Below are positions 6,160 to 50,017 of a stretch of DNA of 64,000 nt, piece after piece; the first letter of the stretch is position 1, and every line of letters begins with the position of its first letter. The stretch covers positions 1-64,000 of the forward strand of contig JAGWWX010000002.1 in assembly GCA_018970215.1 (NCBI GenBank), given 5' to 3'. Origin of the DNA: Acidobacteriota bacterium (GTDB taxonomy: Bacteria; Actinomycetota; Acidimicrobiia; Acidimicrobiales; RAAP-2). The notes beneath the pieces are model-generated. The model made no database searches. It saw only the letters and a program-made list of their open reading frames with translations, and had not been told where the DNA came from. The translations under genes were made by a program, and so were the position numbers.

Positions 6160-6900
6160 ATGGGTCCCGACCGAATCCTTCAAACCCTTCAGGACTGTGC
6201 CGATGCCGTGGGCGCGGTGTACGGCGAATTTCAAGGTCGTGGATTTAGTGGCGCGCGTGACACCCAATACCACTTAGACGTGGCGGCCGATGCCGCCGCT
6301 CTGGCGGTTTTACTCGGTGCGAGCTGGCGAGTGATAAGCGAAGAGTCGGGCGATTCGGGTGGGACAGATGACGACACCATCGTTGTCGTTGACCCAATTG
6401 ACGGCTCTACAAACTGCGATCGCGGCATCCCTTTCTTCACAACGAGTTTGGCTGTCATTGAAAAGGGCGAACTCGTCGCCGCTTTGGTCCGAAATCACGC
6501 CGACGGCCAGACGTACACGGCGATTCGGGGCGGCGGGGCATACCGAAATGATGTGCGAATCACGCCGAGTGCTCAAAAAACAGTGCGAGGTGCACTCGTC
6601 AGTTTCTCGGGCCACCCGGAGCGTCACGTTGGATGGGGTCAGATTCGGGCACTCGGAGCGGCCAGCCTTGAAGGCTGCTACGTCGCGGATGGTCGACTCG
6701 ATCTCTATACCGTCGCCCAAAGGTCGTCACTGTCAACTTGGGACTACCTGGCCGCCTGTCTCATAGCGAGAGAAGCGGGTGCGGTGGTGCTGAACTACGG
6801 CAGCGACGAACTCGTTGCCTGGGACCGCCGTCCCCGGTCGCCTCTCTTTGCGGCTACCCCCGAACTCGCACAGGAATTTCTGGCTCTCGGGCCCCTCTAG
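6160..6900 (+). CDS. Inositol monophosphatase family protein
   Basis: VVVDPIDGSTNCDRGIPFFTTSLAV and STWDYLAACLIAREAGA motifs; GTG at 6127 also possible. Confidence 0.85.
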   Translation: MGPDRILQTLQDCADAVGAVYGEFQGRGFSGARDTQYHLDVAADAAALAVLLGASWRVISEESGDSGGTDDDTIVVVDPIDGSTNCDRGIPFFTTSLAVIEKGELVAALVRNHADGQTYTAIRGGGAYRNDVRITPSAQKTVRGALVSFSGHPERHVGWGQIRALGAASLEGCYVADGRLDLYTVAQRSSLSTWDYLAACLIAREAGAVVLNYGSDELVAWDRRPRSPLFAATPELAQEFLALGPL

Positions 6901-6913
6901 GCTGAGTGACCGC

Positions 6914-6990
6914 GGGCGCTTAGCTCAGTTGGTTAGAGCAGCTGGCTTACAACCAGCAGGTCGGGGGTTCGAGTCCCTCAGCGCCCACCA
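6914..6990 (+). tRNA. tRNA-Val (anticodon UAC), CCA encoded
   Basis: Cloverleaf readable by eye: GGGCGCT acceptor pairing AGCGCCC, anticodon arm GCTGG-CTTACAA-CCAGC, GGTTCGAGTCC T arm, 3' ACCA. Confidence 0.95.
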
Positions 6991-7027
6991 CCCCGCCAAG
7001 GGGAGTAGTAGCGTCAGGTCAGGACTC

Positions 7028-9055
7028 ATGACTGATTATCGCCCTCGCCACCGTGGCCTGTTCGCGGGGTTCGCCCTCGCCGCCATTTTGGGCGTGTTGT
7101 CGTATGGATTGAACCCGGGTTCGGCGTGGGCCGGTGGATATCCCGGACCGATAGCACAGCCCGGTACGCCGACCACCATTCCGGGGCAGGGAATTGGTCG
7201 CGTCGATGACGGTTCGGAAGCTCAACCATTTTACGTGTGTGGATTTGATGTCTCGAACGACACCAACAACTCCCGCTCGACCGCAACAATTTACGTCAAT
7301 GGTGCTCGCTTAAAGGATTTGGCTATCGACGAAAATGGATGTGTCACTGTCGTTGTTTCCGTCTTTTCTCTTGCGACGGGAACGGTCAAAGACAGAAACA
7401 CGACGACGGTGTGGATCACGATCAACGGGGGGCGTCGAGTCGAGGTTCCGCGAGGCACTGTTCGATTGAAAATTGTTGGCGTGAAGTCAGACCACTTTGG
7501 ACAAAATCGTGAAGACGTTGCCGCCATCGTTCCGATGTTGACTGCCGTGCGTGTTGTTCCAACCACCACGACAACGACAACGACAACAACTTCGACAACG
7601 TCTACGACATCAACCTCAACCTCAACGACGACGACCACGGTTCCTCGTTCAACGACGACAACAGTCCCCGGTACCACCGTGCCAACAACACTTCCGCCAA
7701 CAACGATTCCAGGCCAGACGACGACCACTACGTTGCCGCCTCCGTCAACAACAGTTCCGATCCCCACGACGACCACGACAACCATTGCGGGCGAGCCGGT
7801 AAAGACAACGACAACGACGGTGTATGTCGCGGAGTCGACAACAACAATCCCTAAAGCCATCACGTCTTCACCACAGACAGTCCAGAAGTCGGCATCTCAG
7901 GTGACGGCAGTTGCTGCCGTCAGTACGGCCGCGGCAACGGCCGCGTCCTCGGCAACTGCCGCTACTCAGGCTGCTTCGGCTGCAGCACAGGCTGCACGAG
8001 CTGCAGCCGCTGCTGCACAGGCGGCGTCGAGTGCATCGTCTGCTGCGCAGGCGGCAACGAGTTTGCCGACATCCATCCCAACGGGCGGCGGCGTTCCTCT
8101 CGGTGGCGGATTACCGACTGGCGGTGGTGTGCCAGGTGGTGCCACTCCATCTGTTCCCCGGATCCCGACGACACCTTCTGTTCCTACTCCGCCGCCGGCT
8201 GCCCCGACACCGCCACCGACCGCACCGACCGCACCAACCGCACCAACCGCACCAACCGCACCAACTGCACCAACTGCACCAACTGCACCAACTGCACCAA
8301 CTGCACCAACTGCACCGACCGCACCGACCGCACCAAGCACTCCGGCCGCCCCGAGCGCTCCGACTGGTGGTGCGGCGCCCAGTGCACCGTCGGGTCCTCC
8401 GGGTTCAACTCCAAGCGGTGGCGGTGCTCCAAGTGGCGGCGCGGCACCATCTGCGCCAAGCAGTGGATCGGCCGCGAGCGAGCCGACTCCGACTCCCCGA
8501 CCCAGTGCTCCGAGCGGCGGCGGAGTTCCAAGTGGCGGCGCAGCACCGTCGGCGCCAGGTTCAACATCCGAGCCCACTCCAACGAGTACGCCACGACCAA
8601 CTGCTCCCACTACTCCCAACGAACCAACCCCGCCCCCGTCGAGCGGAACCTCCAGTCCGACCAGCGGATCTGCACCTAGCGGTGGCGGCGCACCTTCGGG
8701 GAGTTCGAGTCAGCCTTCATCGCCAACCGGTGGGGGATCGACCTCCCCGAGCTCGGGTTCGAGCGGTGGCAGCGGACCTGGCTCCAGCGGCAGTTCTAGT
8801 TCAAGCGGCGGTGGTTCCAGCTCGAGCTCTGGTTCGAGCGGTAGCTCTGGCTCTGGCTCTGGTTCGGGTGGCGGCTCAGGTTCTGGTTCGGGTGGCGGCT
8901 CAGGTTCTGGTTCGGGTGGCGGCTCAGGTTCTGGTTCAGGTGGCGGCTCGGGTTCAGGTGGCGGCTCAGGTTCTGGTTCAGGTGGCAACCGCGCACAGGG
9001 TGATAATTCAGATGGCGGTAATTCAGGCGATGCCCCCACAGGAGGTGATGCCTAA
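7028..9055 (+). CDS. Low-complexity secreted/surface protein with Thr-, Ala-, (TAP)n and (GSGSGGGS)n tracts
   Basis: ORF trimmed from 6815 (which reads through the tRNA) to ATG 7028; N-terminal hydrophobic segment [19 protein letters not shown]; short globular region then extreme low complexity to the C terminus. Confidence 0.75.
8219..8335 (+). repeat. Tandem repeat, 9-bp unit x13 (acc/act gca ccg/cca; encodes Thr-Ala-Pro)
   Basis: Counted directly: 13 consecutive in-frame 9-mers differing only at third codon positions. Confidence 0.95.
8861..8986 (+). repeat. Tandem repeat, 24-bp unit ggttcgggtggcggctcaggttct, three near-exact copies plus degenerate copies (encodes GSGGGSGS)
   Basis: Units at 8861-8884, 8885-8908, 8909-8932, then degraded and partial units. 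Confidence 0.9.
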
Positions 9056-11928
9056 TGTCGATGTTCGAAAGCGCTCACGCCGGACACCTTGCCGCCGACG
9101 TCGAAATTGCGCACGAAGCGGGGTACGCCCGCGGCCATCGACCGAATGCACCCGTCGCCCCCGGGCTCGGCGGTCGTCATATTGTTGATCGATTTAACGA
9201 GAAAATTGGTACACCCATTACTCGAGTCTCACCTTTGTTCGGTGGACCATTCAATGACAGTGGCTACTTGCGGTCGCTATTGGGCAACGCGTATATCGCT
9301 CTGCCAATACTTGCGGCCGTCCTCGGCATCTTGTCGGTCTTTAACACCGGCGGGTTAGCCGTTCCACCGTCACTGACGCTGACTTTGTCTCTGATGGTGA
9401 TCGGAGTTCTCGATGCGTTTGCGGGACTCGTGGGATTTGCCGTCTTTGCACTCGGCGTTATTTTGAGCGGGCATTTCTTCTCTTTGCATTTGCTCACGGC
9501 TCCCGAAGGATCTCAGAGCATCCTGTATGCCTTTACCGGGTTGTTCTCAATTGCACTTCTCTGGTTTATTGCTCCACAATTGGCCGCGAAGATGCGGCCA
9601 ATTGTGGTCGTAGGTGATCAGAAGGGTGTAGCGAGACTCCACCTCATCACTGCGGATCTCTTAGTACTACCTTTCCTGACGATTCTGATTCTCGGCTCAA
9701 TGCCCGCTCTGGCACCGAGCCTGACGGGGGCCTTTAAGCAAGGCCTCGAAGTCAGTATTCAAGAACATCTCAACACAATCAAAATATTTGTGGCTCTGGC
9801 GATGTTTGTTCGAGTTCTTATTGAGCTATTCATTCACCGTCAGTTCGCTCCAGTTGAGCCGACGTACCCCAGTGCTCGTCACCCCTACATCGAACGAACC
9901 TTGAAGATTGGGACGAACATTTTTGCGTTCGTTTTGATTTACGAAGTCATGGGTCTGATGTGGCAGACGGTTGCTGTGTGGATTGCGTATCTCATGACCG
10001 AGAAGATCACGATTCTTGGAGAGCGATTCCTCAAGCCAAGCTCGATTTATCGCTTTGTTCCGAGAAATCTCTTCAAGATTCTGGTTATCTTGATCTTCTC
10101 TCAGTACGCCATGAAGGTATTGAACGGTCGATTTGTGGCCGGTACCGACATTTTGGGTTACCTCGCAATCGCCCTTGCGGTCGTGACGGCCGTCTTTGCA
10201 CTCCTCGAGGGAGCGAATCGAGCGTCGGAGACAGAGGCCCGTGCAGCGGAGGCGCGTGCGACATGGTGGACCCGCACCGCCGGATTCGTTGTGGTGCTCG
10301 CCCTGTTCTTGTTTTCGCAAGATCGCATCCACTTATTTGAGGCGAAACCCTATGCGGAGCCTCATGGAATCTCACTTAGTTTCACAGGCAATACGTACAT
10401 CGCTGATACCGGTAACAATCGGGTCATTCGTATCGGCGTCGATGGCTCTCGCTCAACTCTGGGTGTCAACTTGGACCATCCCACGTCAGTAGCTCCCGAT
10501 CCGTCATCCAGCAAAGAACAGGTCTATATCTCCAACACGGGACGCAATGAACTCCTGCGGGTATCGGTGGGGGCGCAGCAGGCTTTGATACCTGCGCGTT
10601 TCGAGACTCGTTCGTTTGCCATCTCTGATATGCGGCAGAAACCGTTAGGTAATCATCTAAAAGATCCGACAGCCGTGGCCGTCGATACCAAAGGTCGGGT
10701 GTACCTCTGTGACACGGGTAACGGTCGCGTAGTGATGTTCCCGGCTAACGGTGACTCCAGTACTCAGAGTGTTTTTGACGCCGATCTCGAAGAGCCTCGC
10801 GGAGTCTTCACTGACGTATTTGGACATGTTTGGGTGGTTGATTCGGGTACGAAAAAGATCTGGAAGTACACCGTTGATGATGCCGGTCACGCAGTGAGCC
10901 GGACCGAATTTATCCCTGACGTAGATGAGAACGGTCAGCAGATTGAGTTTGACGACCCCACGAGCGTTGCGGTTGACTTAGGGCAAAACGTCTTCGTGGC
11001 CGATGCAGGACATAAGAAGATCTATCAGTTCCAGGCCAATGGAAGAAACGTGGCGGTGGAGGGCGAATTTGACGAGCCGATGTCCCTAGCCGTCAACCTG
11101 TCGGGCCACGCCTACGTGGCCGACGCGCGGACGTCAGAGATTCAGGTCATTACGCCTCTCTACACGCCGCGGCGAATGACGTCAGCGCCCACCGAGCCCG
11201 GTACTGCGGTCGCGTTGGCCGATAACAACACTGCCTATGTCGTCAGTGCGAAGTCGGGCACTCTCGAAAAGCTCACGGATAAGGGTGCGACGACGATTGC
11301 CAGTGGTTTGCGTGCACCACGTGGGGTGGCCGTCAATGCGCTAGGAGAGATCTATGTCTCCGAGAGTGAGACGGGAAAGATATATCGAATTAACGAGCGG
11401 ACCGGCGGAAAGACTGTTATCGCTCAAGGATTGACGGGAGTCGGCGCTCTGTCGGCCGACGGTTACGGTGGTCTCTTCGCGGTGCAGGAAGAGTTCGGCA
11501 ATCTTTTGACGGTGACTCGCGACGGTGTCGTGAAACTGTTGGTGGGCGGTCTCGATCACCCAACTGACTGCATCCAGGACGCGTATGGGTACATCGACGT
11601 CACGCTGGCCGGTCACAAGAAGAGTGACGGCAAAGTCATTCGCTTCGCCCCCGGACAAACAGTGCAGATTGTTCACGACAATCTGCAGCGACCAATTGGA
11701 ATTAGTGCTGACGCCAACGGCAATCTCTTCTACATCGAAGAGGGAACCGATCGCGTATGGGAGTACATGGGCCTCCTCGGTCTGCAGATTGTCTCCGAGC
11801 GCGGCGTGACCACACGTGGGAATCCCTTGGCCTTAGCGTCAGACGGCGACGGCAACGTCTACCTTCTGCAAGACCACCCCAATAGGGTCTATAAGTTCGT
11901 TCTGTCGTATCACGCATCACCGATGTAG
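9055..11928 (+). CDS. Polytopic membrane protein with C-terminal NHL-type beta-propeller
   Basis: Multiple hydrophobic segments in the N-terminal ~400 aa; repeated NHL-like motifs NTYIADTGNNRVIRIG, GRVYLCDTGNGRVVMF, GHVWVVDSGTKKIWKY, NVFVADAGHKKIYQF, GEIYVSESETGKIYRI; start overlaps previous stop (taATG). Confidence 0.8.
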   Translation: MSMFESAHAGHLAADVEIAHEAGYARGHRPNAPVAPGLGGRHIVDRFNEKIGTPITRVSPLFGGPFNDSGYLRSLLGNAYIALPILAAVLGILSVFNTGGLAVPPSLTLTLSLMVIGVLDAFAGLVGFAVFALGVILSGHFFSLHLLTAPEGSQSILYAFTGLFSIALLWFIAPQLAAKMRPIVVVGDQKGVARLHLITADLLVLPFLTILILGSMPALAPSLTGAFKQGLEVSIQEHLNTIKIFVALAMFVRVLIELFIHRQFAPVEPTYPSARHPYIERTLKIGTNIFAFVLIYEVMGLMWQTVAVWIAYLMTEKITILGERFLKPSSIYRFVPRNLFKILVILIFSQYAMKVLNGRFVAGTDILGYLAIALAVVTAVFALLEGANRASETEARAAEARATWWTRTAGFVVVLALFLFSQDRIHLFEAKPYAEPHGISLSFTGNTYIADTGNNRVIRIGVDGSRSTLGVNLDHPTSVAPDPSSSKEQVYISNTGRNELLRVSVGAQQALIPARFETRSFAISDMRQKPLGNHLKDPTAVAVDTKGRVYLCDTGNGRVVMFPANGDSSTQSVFDADLEEPRGVFTDVFGHVWVVDSGTKKIWKYTVDDAGHAVSRTEFIPDVDENGQQIEFDDPTSVAVDLGQNVFVADAGHKKIYQFQANGRNVAVEGEFDEPMSLAVNLSGHAYVADARTSEIQVITPLYTPRRMTSAPTEPGTAVALADNNTAYVVSAKSGTLEKLTDKGATTIASGLRAPRGVAVNALGEIYVSESETGKIYRINERTGGKTVIAQGLTGVGALSADGYGGLFAVQEEFGNLLTVTRDGVVKLLVGGLDHPTDCIQDAYGYIDVTLAGHKKSDGKVIRFAPGQTVQIVHDNLQRPIGISADANGNLFYIEEGTDRVWEYMGLLGLQIVSERGVTTRGNPLALASDGDGNVYLLQDHPNRVYKFVLSYHASPM

Positions 11929-43374: not shown

Positions 43375-43432
43375 TGCCCCTCGTCGACGGTTTTTCGTAG
43401 GCTACAACGACGATGCAGAGAAAGTGGGGCTT

Positions 43433-44083
43433 ATGAGAGCGCACGTCTGGCGACACCATCGCGAAGACCACGGTGGGCTGATCAGTGACGCTCTTCGTCG
43501 ACACGGTGTTGAAGTCGAAGAGTATCTCGTTGGTCCGTTCTCGTCACCACCCGTGGATGATGCGAGCGACTTCTTGGTCGTCCTAGGGTCGTCGGAATCG
43601 GTCTACGACCCGACTATCAGCTGGATATCCCAGGAGTTGCAGGAGATGCAACGCCTCCTTGAACGTGGTGTCAGAGTCTTGGGCATCTGTTTTGGCGCAC
43701 AGATGCTGTGCGTTCTGCATGGTGGCCGCGTCGAGAAGGCACCCATCGGAGAACTTGGTTGGTACGACGTGCAGTCCAAAACGCCACAGATCGCGCAAGG
43801 TCCCTGGTTTCAGTATCACTACGACCGTTGTGAACTTCCTGCGCGCGCCGAAATTTTGGCTCACTCGGAGATCGCCGTACAGGCGTTCACTATCGGACGC
43901 CACGTGGGCGTGCAATTTCACCCCGAGGTTGATGCAGCGCAATTGCGAGACTGGTTTGCGCACGACGCCGACGCACGGCGGTCCGGTGCCGACATTGACG
44001 AATTCATTCGAACTGCCATGGCCCGCGAAGTGGAACTAAAAACCAACGCAGATCAATTAGTGGAGTTCTATCTCTCTCGGTGA
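43433..44083 (+). CDS. Class I glutamine amidotransferase-like protein
   Basis: ATG 43433 (ORF trimmed from 42908); GVRVLGICFGAQMLCVLHGGRV and GVQFHPEVDA catalytic Cys/His motifs. Confidence 0.8.
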   Translation: MRAHVWRHHREDHGGLISDALRRHGVEVEEYLVGPFSSPPVDDASDFLVVLGSSESVYDPTISWISQELQEMQRLLERGVRVLGICFGAQMLCVLHGGRVEKAPIGELGWYDVQSKTPQIAQGPWFQYHYDRCELPARAEILAHSEIAVQAFTIGRHVGVQFHPEVDAAQLRDWFAHDADARRSGADIDEFIRTAMAREVELKTNADQLVEFYLSR

Positions 44084-45250
44084 TTACGTCCCAGCACCCA
44101 GCGTGTACTGCAAGGTTCCCAAACACATTTCATCACTCGAACCATCGCCCCACGTGATGTAGCGCGGCGGGAGATTTTTTGTCTGCGGATTTAGTTTCCT
44201 CAACGTGGGGTCGTACGAGCAGTTGATTTTGAAGTAGTCACCGGGCTGTACGACCACGGGGGTGGGAAGTCGATATCCGAACTGGTTGTCGAAGTTGTAG
44301 TTCGGCACCACAATCAGTGACTCTTGATTCGCGCTTGCGCATGTTCGGTCATGTCGACAGACGACTAGTGAAAAGGTTTTTCCGAGCATGTGCATGTGCG
44401 GAGTGACGGAATGTAGCGTCCAGGTACTCGCCAGCGGTCCGGCAATGCACTGTGCCGATCGAGCGTTCGCGTCGGCCGACGTTGCGGGCCGCACTCCACT
44501 GTTGCAAACAAAATCAAGGAGGCGGGTGAATTGGGCGGCTGCAGATCCCGTTCGCTTTGCGAGGTCGGCCATCGATTTGTTGTAGTCGCACAGCGGATAC
44601 TTCTTCACGTTGTCATACGGCGCGACGCAAGGGAGATTCGGTGCGGCGGCAACCTGAAAATTCCGAATAGCGGTTCTCGTTGACGTTGCTTGTGGCTCTG
44701 AGTAGTAGTCAAAGGCTGACGTCACCTTCTTCTTCCCGGCGAGCGAGTTGTAGTGGATCTGGAGAACAATCAGACTGTTGGCGGGAACGAGAACTCCGTA
44801 ACCTTCTTCTTGCGTGTCGGCCCCATGGCCCGGTGACCACCCTGCGAGCCATGGCAGTGCCGCGAGGCCACCCATCGATGTCGGTCCCAGCGGCGAAGCA
44901 AAGCATGACCAGCCCTTAGTCCCCGTCGGGTCGAGTGCCTTGATTTGAGATACGACGGACGATTGAGCCACGTACGCAATGGCGTGGTGGAGTTGACGAA
45001 TATTTGACTGCTTAGGCGATGTATCGGCCCGGAATTCAGTCTTCGTAATCATTTGGTTCGTCGCGAAGTGCGGGTCGAACCAAATGCAGCGATATTCGTC
45101 CGTCGCCCCAGAAGGCGGCGTGGGTGCGTGAGTGACAACGATGGAGCCCGTCGGAGCTGTGGCCGCACGGGTCATGAGCGGAGTGCCGAATCCCAGCAAG
45201 AGCGTGAGGGCCACGCCGATCCGAAGTCGATAAGAGGCAGAGGAGAGCAT
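44084..45250 (-). CDS. Secreted PHM/DBH-like copper type II monooxygenase-like protein (paralogue A)
   Basis: Signal-peptide-like N-terminus; LHHAIAYV, QIHYN, HMHMLGKTF, SSDEMCLGTL correspond to PHM Cu ligands (His-His, His, His-x-His, Met). Confidence 0.65.
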   Translation of the reverse strand: MLSSASYRLRIGVALTLLLGFGTPLMTRAATAPTGSIVVTHAPTPPSGATDEYRCIWFDPHFATNQMITKTEFRADTSPKQSNIRQLHHAIAYVAQSSVVSQIKALDPTGTKGWSCFASPLGPTSMGGLAALPWLAGWSPGHGADTQEEGYGVLVPANSLIVLQIHYNSLAGKKKVTSAFDYYSEPQATSTRTAIRNFQVAAAPNLPCVAPYDNVKKYPLCDYNKSMADLAKRTGSAAAQFTRLLDFVCNSGVRPATSADANARSAQCIAGPLASTWTLHSVTPHMHMLGKTFSLVVCRHDRTCASANQESLIVVPNYNFDNQFGYRLPTPVVVQPGDYFKINCSYDPTLRKLNPQTKNLPPRYITWGDGSSDEMCLGTLQYTLGAGT

Positions 45251-45289
45251 GGTCGTAAGTTAGTAGCGAACTAGTCGGCGGAGTCGTCA

Positions 45290-46102
45290 GTGGGTACATT
45301 CATCATTTTGACGCGAGGCCGCACGCCGGGTCGCACCGGCCCGCCGTCGGCATGGTACGAAGCGGGCCGCAACAACGCCCTCGCCGAAGAGTTGGTGAGT
45401 CGCGGACACCGCGTCGCGATGTGGTGGGACGAACCACACGGTCGCTGCGTTACCGATGAGGCCGATGTCGTCATTATTCGATCCGGCGGACCAGTGAATA
45501 TTCAACGTGGTCGTGAACTTAAGTCGGCGGGTGCGTGCGTCGTGAATGACCCCGACGCCCACTGGCGAGCAAGTGATAAGTGGGAGTTAGCGACGTCATT
45601 CGTAGCTGCTGGTTTGAGTCACCCCACCACACAACTGGCAAGCGGAAAATTTTACCGAGAGATGGTTCTCAAGAAGCGCCGCAGTAGTGGTGGACACGGT
45701 GTTTCGCTCCTTGCACCGAATGTTTTTGTTGATGACGTGGACTGTGTCGTCCAAGAAAGAGTGAATGTCATCGACGACCTCCGCGCCCTCGTCATCGACG
45801 GGGAAATCATTCATTGGCTACGCAGGTCGCCTCGACCGGGGGAGTGGCGTTCGAATCTGGCGCAAGGTTCAACGTTCGAAGAGGCGTTCGAAGTTGAGCG
45901 AGAAGCAACACTGCTTGCTCGGGCAGCGGCTGCGGCGTGTGAACTCGAGCTGAGTGGTGTCGATCTGGTGCGTGATCAGAATCGATGGTTCGTTCTTGAA
46001 GCGAACCCTGGAACGACACTCTATGGGGCGACGGTAGAGGAGGGTGTCCGCAATGTGCGGCACATTGCAGATGCCATGGAGCGCCGACTCGCTAGGAGTT
46101 AG
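45290..46102 (+). CDS. ATP-grasp (RimK-like) ligase-type protein
   Basis: DVVIIRSGGP, MVLKKRRSSGGHGVSLL, CVVQERVNVIDDLRALVIDGEIIHWLRRSPRPGEWRSNLAQG, GVDLVRDQNRWFVLEANPGTTLYG; GTG start. Confidence 0.78.
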   Translation: MGTFIILTRGRTPGRTGPPSAWYEAGRNNALAEELVSRGHRVAMWWDEPHGRCVTDEADVVIIRSGGPVNIQRGRELKSAGACVVNDPDAHWRASDKWELATSFVAAGLSHPTTQLASGKFYREMVLKKRRSSGGHGVSLLAPNVFVDDVDCVVQERVNVIDDLRALVIDGEIIHWLRRSPRPGEWRSNLAQGSTFEEAFEVEREATLLARAAAAACELELSGVDLVRDQNRWFVLEANPGTTLYGATVEEGVRNVRHIADAMERRLARS

Positions 46103-47243
46103 CTCCCGACGAGACGATTAACGTCCCGAGGCACATCTCATCACTAGAGCCGTCACCCCACGTTACGTAACGTGGCGCCAGATTTTTTGTTTGGGGGTTC
46201 AGTTTCCTCAGAGTTGGGTCGTAGGAGCACGTCACTTTGATGTAGTCGCCGGGATTGACCGTTACGGACGGCGATGGCGTATAACTGATTTGATTGTCGA
46301 AGTTATAACTCGGAACGATGGCGAGCGACGTAGTGTCACTAGAACACGTCGCATCTTGACGACATACCACTATGGAGAACGTCTTGCCCAGTAGATGCAT
46401 GTGTGGCCACACAGCGTGCACGGTGAAGGGGCCACCCGAGGCTGGCCAAGTACAGGTGGCCGTCGAGGCGTTCGGCGAACTGCTCGACGTGGGTAGAGAT
46501 CCTCGATTGCAGTACGCCTCAATACTGAGCGCAAATCCTTTCGCCGATTCCCCGAAGCGTTTTGCCAAGTCGTTCAGTGAACTGTTGTGATTACAGAGTG
46601 GGTACTTGATGACATTGTCATATGGGGCCACGCAAGGTACGGTCGGGGCCGCAACGTACGTCTTCATGGAGAGCGGTACCCGAGACGACGTTGACTGTGG
46701 CTCGCTCCAGGTTCGAAATTCAGATGTGACAGATTTCTTGCCCGCGAGAGAGTTGTAGTGGATCTGCAGCACGATGAGCGACCCGGCCGCTACCCGGATG
46801 CCGTACCCCTCCGGTGAGGTGTCGGCCCCGTGGCCAGGCGACCATCCATACAGCCACGGAAGGGCACCGAGACTCGCCATCGAAGAGGCTCCGAGCGGCG
46901 ATGAGAAACACGACCATCCCTTCTTCCCTGAAGGATCGAGTGCTTTTATCTGCGCAACGACCGACGGTTCGACGATGTAGGCAATAGCGTGGTGAAGTTC
47001 CTTGCGAGCCGCAGCTGATGTACCTGCCGCCGCCGCAAATTCCGACTTTGTGACGACCTGCGCGGTCGCGAACTTGGGATCGAACCACGTACAGCGATAC
47101 TCGTCGTTCGCCCCCGACGGTGGCGTGGGGGCGTGACTGACCGTGTACTTCACGGGGGCGCTCACAGCGGCGTTCACTGTGAGCGACATCGATACGAACA
47201 GAGCGAACAGCACGAACGAGAGGGCGACCACGATGCGCTTCAT
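46092..47243 (-). CDS. Secreted PHM/DBH-like copper type II monooxygenase-like protein (paralogue B)
   Basis: Signal-peptide-like N-terminus (RIVVALSFVLFALFVSMSLTVNA); LHHAIAYI, QIHYN, HMHLLGKTF, SSDEMCLGTL; strongly similar to paralogue A. Confidence 0.65.
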   Translation of the reverse strand: MKRIVVALSFVLFALFVSMSLTVNAAVSAPVKYTVSHAPTPPSGANDEYRCTWFDPKFATAQVVTKSEFAAAAGTSAAARKELHHAIAYIVEPSVVAQIKALDPSGKKGWSCFSSPLGASSMASLGALPWLYGWSPGHGADTSPEGYGIRVAAGSLIVLQIHYNSLAGKKSVTSEFRTWSEPQSTSSRVPLSMKTYVAAPTVPCVAPYDNVIKYPLCNHNSSLNDLAKRFGESAKGFALSIEAYCNRGSLPTSSSSPNASTATCTWPASGGPFTVHAVWPHMHLLGKTFSIVVCRQDATCSSDTTSLAIVPSYNFDNQISYTPSPSVTVNPGDYIKVTCSYDPTLRKLNPQTKNLAPRYVTWGDGSSDEMCLGTLIVSSGANS

Positions 47244-47284: not shown

Positions 47285-48739
47285 CTAGATCGAAAAATTC
47301 GTGAACTGCCAGGGGTCGTCTCGGTCGATGTAGCGCCCAGCCCACGTGTCAAACCAGTCGGCTCGACTGGAGACAGGATCCCAGTCCAGAGGTCCTGACC
47401 ACGTCGTTCCGACGTAGGGGAGAGCCACATCGAGAACTTGACGCCACGGCAGTTCATCGGGTACTCGAACACCTTCTCGTGGTGAACGAAGTAGCCAGTC
47501 AACGGCACCCAGAATGGAAGCAGCCACCTGGATGGTGGTCGCACTCTGATGCGGAGCGACACTGCGAGCTTCTTCAATGGACGTCTGCATTCCAGTCCAC
47601 CACGATTTATAAGGGTGGCCCATGAGGAGAACCCCTAGCTCATCACGCCCCGAAATGATGTCGTCGTTCATAATTCGTTGATTTTCGGGGTAGGCGTACT
47701 GATTGCCTTCGAGTTCGATGAAACTCGCCCATCCGGCGTCCGAGGGGCAGTAGGCGTAGTGGACGGTCGGTCGATACACGGGTGTCGGCCCGTCCCAGAC
47801 AGTGAGGTGATCGCAGATTGTGAACGCTTCTCCGTGGCGAATTACCATTCCCACAATCTGGCTTGAGGGCGTGGTGGAACGAACCAATGTCTTATGTGCC
47901 ATCTGCGCGAGACAAATCTGGTTGCCGGGGCCTTCACCGGCGTGTTGATAGGCGAGGGGCGGTAAGCGACGTTCGTGCGTTCCCCATCCCATTTCGGCGG
48001 GTGCGACGCCTTCTTCGTAGAAGCCATCGACTGACCACGTATTGACGAATTCACCTACTTCCTTTGGCTGACGCGAAATCTGAGTATCACGCTCCGCAAC
48101 GTGAATTACCTTGACGTCGAGTTGCTGAGCCAAGACGTTGAAAGTGCTTCGAGACATCGCGTCGCGAATCGCATCGTGGCGGTCGGGGAGGTGACCGTCG
48201 CGTAGCACCGCATCGCCAATTTCCATCAAAGCCTGCTTTACGAAGTGGCTCACTAATCCAGGGTTTGCGCCATGTTCCACGACGGCACTTGGTCCCGCGT
48301 TATCGCCCCACGCAGCAATCTGCCGACGGAGTTTCATGTGTCGCCAATAGAGCGTTCTTTCGGGCGGAGAAGTGGTGGCCGCCGTGTCGTAGGGATCCCA
48401 CAGTTCGACGGAAGTGTTCAGATAGCGGACGTTGTGAGCACGACACCAATCGAGGAGTTCGGTGAGGTCGATATTCCACGCGAGGTCTATGAGAAGGTCG
48501 CCATCAGACAAGTGCGCCGAAAGGACTTCATTGAGATTGTCCGGTGTGATCTCGAGCTGGGAGTACCGCACACCCTGAGAAAGGGCTTCGGCGATGCGAT
48601 GTCGATTGTCACGACTTTCCAACACAGTGACGGTTTGTGGATCGAGTGAGAAGTGTTTTAGGAGCAAAGGTAAGAGGCACTGAGCAACAGAGCCACAGCC
48701 CAACATCACGATCCGTCTCGGCGTTTGGAATTCGGACAA
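47285..48739 (-). CDS. Homospermidine synthase-like (saccharopine dehydrogenase-related)
   Basis: RIVMLGCGSVAQCLLPLLLKHF, LIDLAWNIDLTELLDWCRAHNVRYLNTSVELWDPY, EHGANPGLVSHFVKQAL. Confidence 0.8.
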   Translation of the reverse strand: MSEFQTPRRIVMLGCGSVAQCLLPLLLKHFSLDPQTVTVLESRDNRHRIAEALSQGVRYSQLEITPDNLNEVLSAHLSDGDLLIDLAWNIDLTELLDWCRAHNVRYLNTSVELWDPYDTAATTSPPERTLYWRHMKLRRQIAAWGDNAGPSAVVEHGANPGLVSHFVKQALMEIGDAVLRDGHLPDRHDAIRDAMSRSTFNVLAQQLDVKVIHVAERDTQISRQPKEVGEFVNTWSVDGFYEEGVAPAEMGWGTHERRLPPLAYQHAGEGPGNQICLAQMAHKTLVRSTTPSSQIVGMVIRHGEAFTICDHLTVWDGPTPVYRPTVHYAYCPSDAGWASFIELEGNQYAYPENQRIMNDDIISGRDELGVLLMGHPYKSWWTGMQTSIEEARSVAPHQSATTIQVAASILGAVDWLLRSPREGVRVPDELPWRQVLDVALPYVGTTWSGPLDWDPVSSRADWFDTWAGRYIDRDDPWQFTNFSI

Positions 48740-48823: not shown

Positions 48824-50017
48824 GTGGATTCCGTCGAAAACCTCCTCCTGCAACGCCCAGCGCGCGGCGGATGTGTGGGCCACTTATCTGATGGTCGTGT
48901 GTGTTTCGTTCGTCATGGCCTGCCGGGCGAGTCGGTTACCGTCCGCATTACCGAATCGAAGAGTCGATTTGCGCGCGGAGATGTTGTCGATGTGTTGTCG
49001 GCGAGCGAGAATCGTGTAACGCCGCCGTGTGCCTACGCTCACGTTGGTGGGTGTGGTGGTTGTGACCTGCAGCACGTCGCAACTACCGCTCACTCGGAGT
49101 GGAAGGCCCGCGTCGCTAGCGAGCAGTTCAGTCGTATTGCGAAACTTGACATGGAAATTGCCGTCAGCGACGCTTCGAGCGCGTCGCGAAGCCGCACCCG
49201 ACTCCGCTGCGGAGTTGATAGTGACGGCCGACTGGGGTTACGTCGCCATGGGAGCGATGTGATACAGCCTCTTGTCGACTGCTGGTTAATGGACTCATCA
49301 GTTAACGAAGCCTTTCTGAACGATTGGACGGGAGCTCGTGAAGTTGAGTTGCGTTCCATTGGCGAGACGAGTTTCGCAGTCGTGACGTTGGCGAGTGGCG
49401 AGGTTGTCACCGCGACGTTGGATGGGCTGATCGACGACGATCTCCAGCGAAGTCACGTCGAAGTCCTTGGCGAGCGCTTCCGAGTGAGTCCGCAATCCTT
49501 CTGGCAGTCCCACGCGGACGCTCCCGCCACTTTGACGCGAGCCGTTCTTTCGGCGGCTCGCGTCCGTCGCGGCGACCGAGTGGTCGACCTCTTTAGTGGC
49601 GTGGGGCTTTTTTCAGTTCCTCTGGCGCGCCACGCAGGCCACGACGGGAGGGTCATCGCTGTTGAGGCCTCGGCCTCGGCGTGCGCGGATGCCCGACGCA
49701 ATGTGGCTGATGTGCCCCAGGTGACGGTGGTGGAGTCTCGTGTCACCCCGCGGGTGATTAGAGATGTAGTTGACGCCCGCAGCATTGTTGTGCTTGATCC
49801 CCCGCGCGCCGGGGCAGGAATTGAGAACATGAGTGCACTTCTCCACGCCAACCCACTGCGAGTGGTGTACGTATCGTGCGATGCCGCCACACTTGCTCGT
49901 GATGCGAAAGTACTCGTTGATGGCGGGTGGACGTTGGCTTCACTCTCGGCCTTCGACCTTTTCCCCATGACCGAACATTTGGAACTCGTGGCGACATTTA
50001 GTCCGTCAACGCGGTAA
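48824..50017 (+). CDS. TrmA/RlmD-type 5-methyluridine RNA methyltransferase
   Basis: CAYAHVGGCGGCDLQHV Fe-S cysteine cluster, QSFWQSHADAPATLTRAV, VVDLFSGVGLFSVPLA, VLDPPRAG, VYVSCDAATLARD. Confidence 0.88.
   Translation: MDSVENLLLQRPARGGCVGHLSDGRVCFVRHGLPGESVTVRITESKSRFARGDVVDVLSASENRVTPPCAYAHVGGCGGCDLQHVATTAHSEWKARVASEQFSRIAKLDMEIAVSDASSASRSRTRLRCGVDSDGRLGLRRHGSDVIQPLVDCWLMDSSVNEAFLNDWTGAREVELRSIGETSFAVVTLASGEVVTATLDGLIDDDLQRSHVEVLGERFRVSPQSFWQSHADAPATLTRAVLSAARVRRGDRVVDLFSGVGLFSVPLARHAGHDGRVIAVEASASACADARRNVADVPQVTVVESRVTPRVIRDVVDARSIVVLDPPRAGAGIENMSALLHANPLRVVYVSCDAATLARDAKVLVDGGWTLASLSAFDLFPMTEHLELVATFSPSTR

Follow-up and report, generated by a model that had tools for sequence, protein, structure and literature searches.

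Copper enzymes of one class finish peptide hormones (PHM) and make noradrenaline (DBH) in animals. What are two genes of similar appearance doing in a small aquatic actinobacterium, and does the ligase-like gene that they flank belong to the same pathway? The window, here, is the whole stretch of DNA that was analysed, 64 kb long. Paralogue A occupies positions 44084..45250 of its minus strand (388 amino acids) and paralogue B positions 46092..47243 of the same strand (383 amino acids); between them, on the plus strand at 45290..46102, lies the gene of a RimK-like ATP-grasp protein of 270 amino acids, probably a bystander. An earlier note, drawn from the letters of this DNA alone, had given these coordinates, and the three open reading frames are found exactly there. 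The reading defended in what follows, which as a whole we consider probable, is that A and B are exported enzymes, type-2 dicopper monooxygenases with two domains and disulfide bonds, acting on a substrate other than peptidylglycine, and that the ATP-grasp gene is a neighbour.

The two proteins are 60% identical over 382 residues. By inspection, each starts with a predicted Sec-type signal peptide, in keeping with the description "secreted" in the earlier note, and the motifs quoted there (LHHAIAY, QIHYN, HMH(M/L)LGKTF and SSDEMCLGTL) are each present in both A and B. The note had also proposed a search with the Pfam pair Cu2_monooxygen/Cu2_monoox_C, whose outcome is divided: the C-terminal domain (PF03712) is over its cut-off of 23 bits in both proteins, with 25.6 bits for A and 31 bits for B, whereas the N-terminal domain (PF01082) stays below, with 15.2 bits in B for a cut-off of 30 and no match reported for A. 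Among the relatives, PF03712 is matched in 21/21 of those aligned, and PF01082 in 15/21 at E<=0.1. Across the whole genome, PF03712 matches at exactly two places, A and B; in 14 control genomes it has no match. Since these control genomes are empty of matches, and since the six copper ligands and eight cysteines described below are invariant, the signal in A and B is well above chance.

The residues that would bind copper can be followed codon by codon on the minus strand. In B, the CuH site has His84-His85 (46989..46994), invariant in relatives and aligned with the HH of PHM, and His162 (46758..46760); the CuM site has His281-x-His283 (46395..46403) and Met370 of the SSDEMC segment (46134..46136); these last three elements are each invariant in 74/74. 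The corresponding residues of A are His88-His89 (44984..44989), invariant in relatives, and, likewise invariant, His166 (44753..44755), His285-x-His287 (44390..44398) and Met375 (44126..44128). Wherever the sequences cover them, all six ligands and eight cysteines are conserved in 74/74 relatives. Two of the cysteine pairs, C51/C112 and C339/C371, align with cysteines of PHM, and C371 directly follows the methionine ligand, matching C488 after M487 in DBH, where C488 is disulfide-bonded to C466 (PMC4846438).

Comparison with known structures leads to the same class. A single-sequence search of the PDB with B returns nothing relevant; the profile of 21 relatives (A3), compared with PDB sequences, reaches human DBH (4zel, 6e-8) and rat PHM (1opm, 1.5e-4), and the profile alignment puts HH, HY, HxH and DEMC on the copper-binding segments of DBH and PHM. 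The AlphaFold models, computed from six-sequence alignments, are modest to weak, with a pLDDT of 63.6 for B and 59.9 for A. Compared with PDB folds, the model of B finds PHM and DBH only at ranks 1-30, with a best E of 1.2e-10 and a TM by target of up to 0.60 (6ala_A); the model of A finds PHM and DBH only at ranks 1-31, with a global TM by target <=0.40, a value so low that its domain packing is not established. Structure prediction, another check proposed beforehand, thus places both models on PHM/DBH folds above all others. Pfam, the sequence profile against the PDB, the fold comparison and ligand conservation all agree with the enzyme class that the earlier note had recognised, a PHM/DBH type with its six copper ligands kept; as far as sequence and predicted models can carry it, A and B are confirmed as real members of this superfamily, in a bacterium.

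The likeness to rat PHM (1PHM/1OPM) extends to a two-domain fold, as predicted by the models, the six ligands in the same order, the SSDEMC segment, secretion and, by alignment, two disulfide pairs, at an identity of about 16% in the fold alignment. Unlike rat PHM, A and B are bacterial, have four more cysteines, likewise invariant, in the region between the domains, and have no PAL partner identified; the positions of R240, N316 and Y318 are replaced. Human DBH (4ZEL), the top sequence-profile match in the PDB, shares with them the catalytic core fold and the six ligands; its DOMON and dimerisation domains are absent from A and B, in which Pfam finds Cu2_monooxygenase domains only.

The three replaced positions bear directly on the substrate. 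In the structure of rat PHM, Arg240, Asn316 and Tyr318 anchor the peptide carboxylate. The rat letters were confirmed against PDB sequences, and the equivalent positions in relatives were located by their distance from HxH and EMC, two invariant motifs. At position 240, arginine is found in 0/67 relatives, its place being taken by T, G, A, L, W or other residues; at position 316, asparagine is found in 0/75 (L, F, Y, I or M instead); and at position 318, tyrosine in 0/75 (I, L, T or other). The window proteins have W/T, L and T, respectively. Because the carboxylate anchors are absent, the substrate is probably not a peptide with a C-terminal glycine, and peptide amidation by A and B looks unlikely from their sequences. 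The missing anchors lower the case that A and B are PHM, not the case that they work like PHM.

Could they nevertheless be true peptidylglycine hydroxylases, amidating bacterial peptides by themselves or in concert with a separate lyase? The PHM-like fold, ligands and two disulfides would fit, and so would the presence of one NHL-repeat protein in the genome. This sole candidate from the search for a PAL partner, encoded at 9055-11928, 33 kb away, is a large membrane protein and at most a putative lyase; moreover, in no relative does any of the three anchor positions have the PHM residue, and no precursor peptide is known. We give this explanation a very slim chance. The NHL protein itself has 957 amino acids, in which numerous apparent membrane segments precede beta-propeller repeats of NHL/SGL type, and directly upstream of it, at 6815-9055, is a frame of 746 amino acids with long low-complexity stretches rich in Thr, Ala-Pro-Thr and Gly-Ser.

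Assuming that A and B do work like PHM, with the copper loading, activity and cell location that we infer for them, the CuH site (HH and H) would take up one electron and pass it on, and O2 would be bound at the CuM site (HxH and M), which would hydroxylate the substrate at a C-H bond, the reaction taking place outside the cytoplasm. The electrons would more likely come from heme or the respiratory chain than from ascorbate. What makes such a donor the likelier one is a deep sister clade in the order, whose members (L020-L036 and L056) come from other families: a single-heme c-type cytochrome domain is fused to the enzyme, with one CxxCH heme site each, 142-146 residues before HH, in 18/18 sequences. 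Matches to Cytochrome_CBB3 in this clade are below the curated cut-off, and several members have a strong N-terminal YceI domain. Some of the fusions look lipoprotein-like by their N-termini.

The same modules are known from Cbp2D of Cellvibrio japonicus, which has YceI and heme-c domains; its heme domain, CjX183, has been shown in vitro to reduce copper LPMOs (PMC8981238). In both cases a copper monooxygenase is the electron acceptor; Cbp2D, however, donates electrons to LPMOs as a free-standing protein, whereas the sister clade has the modules fused to the PHM-type enzyme. By this analogy, the fused bacterial PHMs may take electrons from heme, perhaps ultimately from quinol. A and B differ from Cbp2D and from the sister clade in having neither YceI nor heme-c modules and no fused cytochrome domain, and the Cytochrome_CBB3 matches in the genome of the window are confined to one open frame of 310 amino acids. 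One may conjecture that acidimicrobial bacteria hold a separate PHM-type branch with a new substrate other than peptidylglycine, driven by quinol or cytochrome c rather than by ascorbate, where the YceI-heme c-PHM fusions would receive the electrons directly and stand-alone enzymes like A and B by way of a separate donor; we regard this extended proposal as possible, on balance somewhat doubtful. Given the lost peptide anchor of PHM and the heme-c fusions, the substrate and the reductant of the bacterial members become questions for the bench.

The fusions also weigh on a different idea, namely that the PHM-type fold of A and B binds or handles extracellular copper, for storage, acquisition or protection, with no oxygenation at all. 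Neither a substrate nor a reductase is encoded nearby, and some relatives have several paralogues per genome, as one might expect of such a function. The invariance of the full set of six ligands across the two catalytic sites, the CuM methionine included, argues against it, as does the fusion of the sister-clade enzymes to a heme electron carrier, which fits redox catalysis; we therefore consider copper handling very unlikely, and retain hydroxylation by a dicopper monooxygenase.

The gene between the two paralogues is a separate matter. The earlier note had called it RimK-like, and PF08443 bears this out with 51.9 bits for a cut-off of 21. No NCBIfam cut-off is reached by the protein, and TIGR00768 (RimK family alpha-L-glutamate ligase) gives 73.1 bits, below the subfamily cut-off of 143.4: it is RimK-like by Pfam only. 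Upstream, on the plus strand at 43409..44083, is a class I glutamine amidotransferase gene (PF00117, 46.9 bits), whose start codon is uncertain, the open frame extending back to 42908, and whose end, 44083, abuts paralogue A. On the other side, 41 bp separate paralogue B from a homospermidine synthase gene on the minus strand at 47285..48739 (5.7e-99 to 2ph5), followed by an RlmD-type 23S rRNA methyltransferase gene on the plus strand at 48824..50017 (TIGR00479, above cut-off). In the window, A thus sits between the amidotransferase and ATP-grasp genes, and B, with the homospermidine synthase gene, between ATP-grasp and RlmD.

In congeners G456, G293, G448, G457 and G450 (L102-L106), RlmD comes directly after ATP-grasp with no PHM gene between, so that RlmD marks the ancestral downstream flank. 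In the first three (L102, L103 and L104), an amidotransferase gene comes directly before ATP-grasp, in the same direction; in G457 and G450, the upstream side is cut by contig ends. This arrangement suggests that the amidotransferase and the ATP-grasp protein form an ammonia-donor/ligase pair, split in the window by paralogue A. The ATP-grasp match of G457 (L105, 1-771), at a contig end, contains one in-frame TAG, which may point to a disrupted gene or an assembly error.

The ATP-grasp family is present in 15/172 genomes of the taxonomic family and in 3/298 of the order. Among the 15, PHM genes on both sides of it are found only in the window. In two genomes, G303 and G320, out of five of the genus g177, one PHM gene is convergent with the ATP-grasp gene, and the block has GH1, CaiB, DLH and ATP-grasp genes in common with the window. 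In the remaining 12, no PHM gene is seen adjoining ATP-grasp (two of these are at contig ends). This adjacency could be ancient, surviving in three genomes, or could have come about repeatedly.

It had been proposed in the earlier note that two hydroxylases and a ligase form a modification system, to be checked by the conservation of the three-gene order; that order occurs in no other genome examined. In its fullest form, the proposal has the ligase produce, in the cytoplasm, a compound that is peptide-like or amide-bonded; after export of this product, A and B would hydroxylate it. The flanking of one and the same gene by both paralogues speaks for it, as do the convergent neighbours seen in two genera (in the window, G303 and G320) and the presence of PHM in 15/15 genomes of the family that hold ATP-grasp. 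This last count has a hypergeometric p of 4.6e-11, which ignores kinship. In an RpoB tree, those sampled congeners that lack PHM group together as one clade, so that much of the signal can be put down to one loss; the co-occurrence, decisive at first sight, is confounded by kinship and was dropped. Furthermore, convergent genes do not make an operon, no exporter or precursor is seen alongside, and PHM is common in genomes that have no ATP-grasp gene, eight congeners among them. These eight congeners and the confounded co-occurrence leave the three-gene system unsupported, and we hold it to be unlikely; a looser functional link between the ATP-grasp protein and PHM may yet exist, given the convergent pair of G303 and G320 and the 15/15 count. 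Since in close relatives the ATP-grasp gene accompanies the amidotransferase and RlmD genes, with no PHM beside it, it is most likely a syntenic neighbour of A and B. In the same RpoB tree, the sequences of the genome of the window, G456 and G457 (L169, L170 and L171) have an unusually long branch compared with other members of the genus.

Homospermidine synthase, the other candidate partner, is found in 3/23 related genomes checked, and the other two have no PHM gene beside it. An operon with B was set aside, the arrangement not being conserved, and the gene is taken as a lineage-specific neighbour; a terminator-like stem between the two genes is within chance expectation.

PHM-like proteins occur in 41/172 genomes of the taxonomic family and in 79/298 of the order, about a quarter of the genomes sampled there, with up to five copies per genome. 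At the level of the phylum, PF03712 is matched in 8/297 sampled genomes, and 7 of the 8 belong to this order: the group is concentrated there. A 2020 review lists PHM and DBM under eukaryotes only in its table of known copper protein families (PMC7435645). In the open literature, which was not searched exhaustively, we found no paper on bacterial PHM or PHM-cytochrome fusions, and no activity for these bacterial proteins.

In the tree of PHM-like proteins, those of G303 and G320 are sister to the clade holding A and B (support 91/85). Within that clade, A branches outside a group formed by B and L003-L005, which rules out a recent tandem duplication. The GC content of both genes is ordinary and GC3 is slightly high, at 0.645 and 0.672 for A and B versus 0.53-0.62 in neighbours, a difference that is not decisive for a foreign origin. 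Elsewhere in the family, the PHM gene of G456 and G457 lies between an aquaporin gene and a UPF0176/rhodanese gene, and that of G399 also adjoins a UPF0176/rhodanese gene. In the genus g2 (L042, L136 and L137), a gene of 412-424 amino acids starts within about 30 bp after the PHM gene, on the same strand; in L042, it encodes a protein of the beta-lactamase/serine-hydrolase family.
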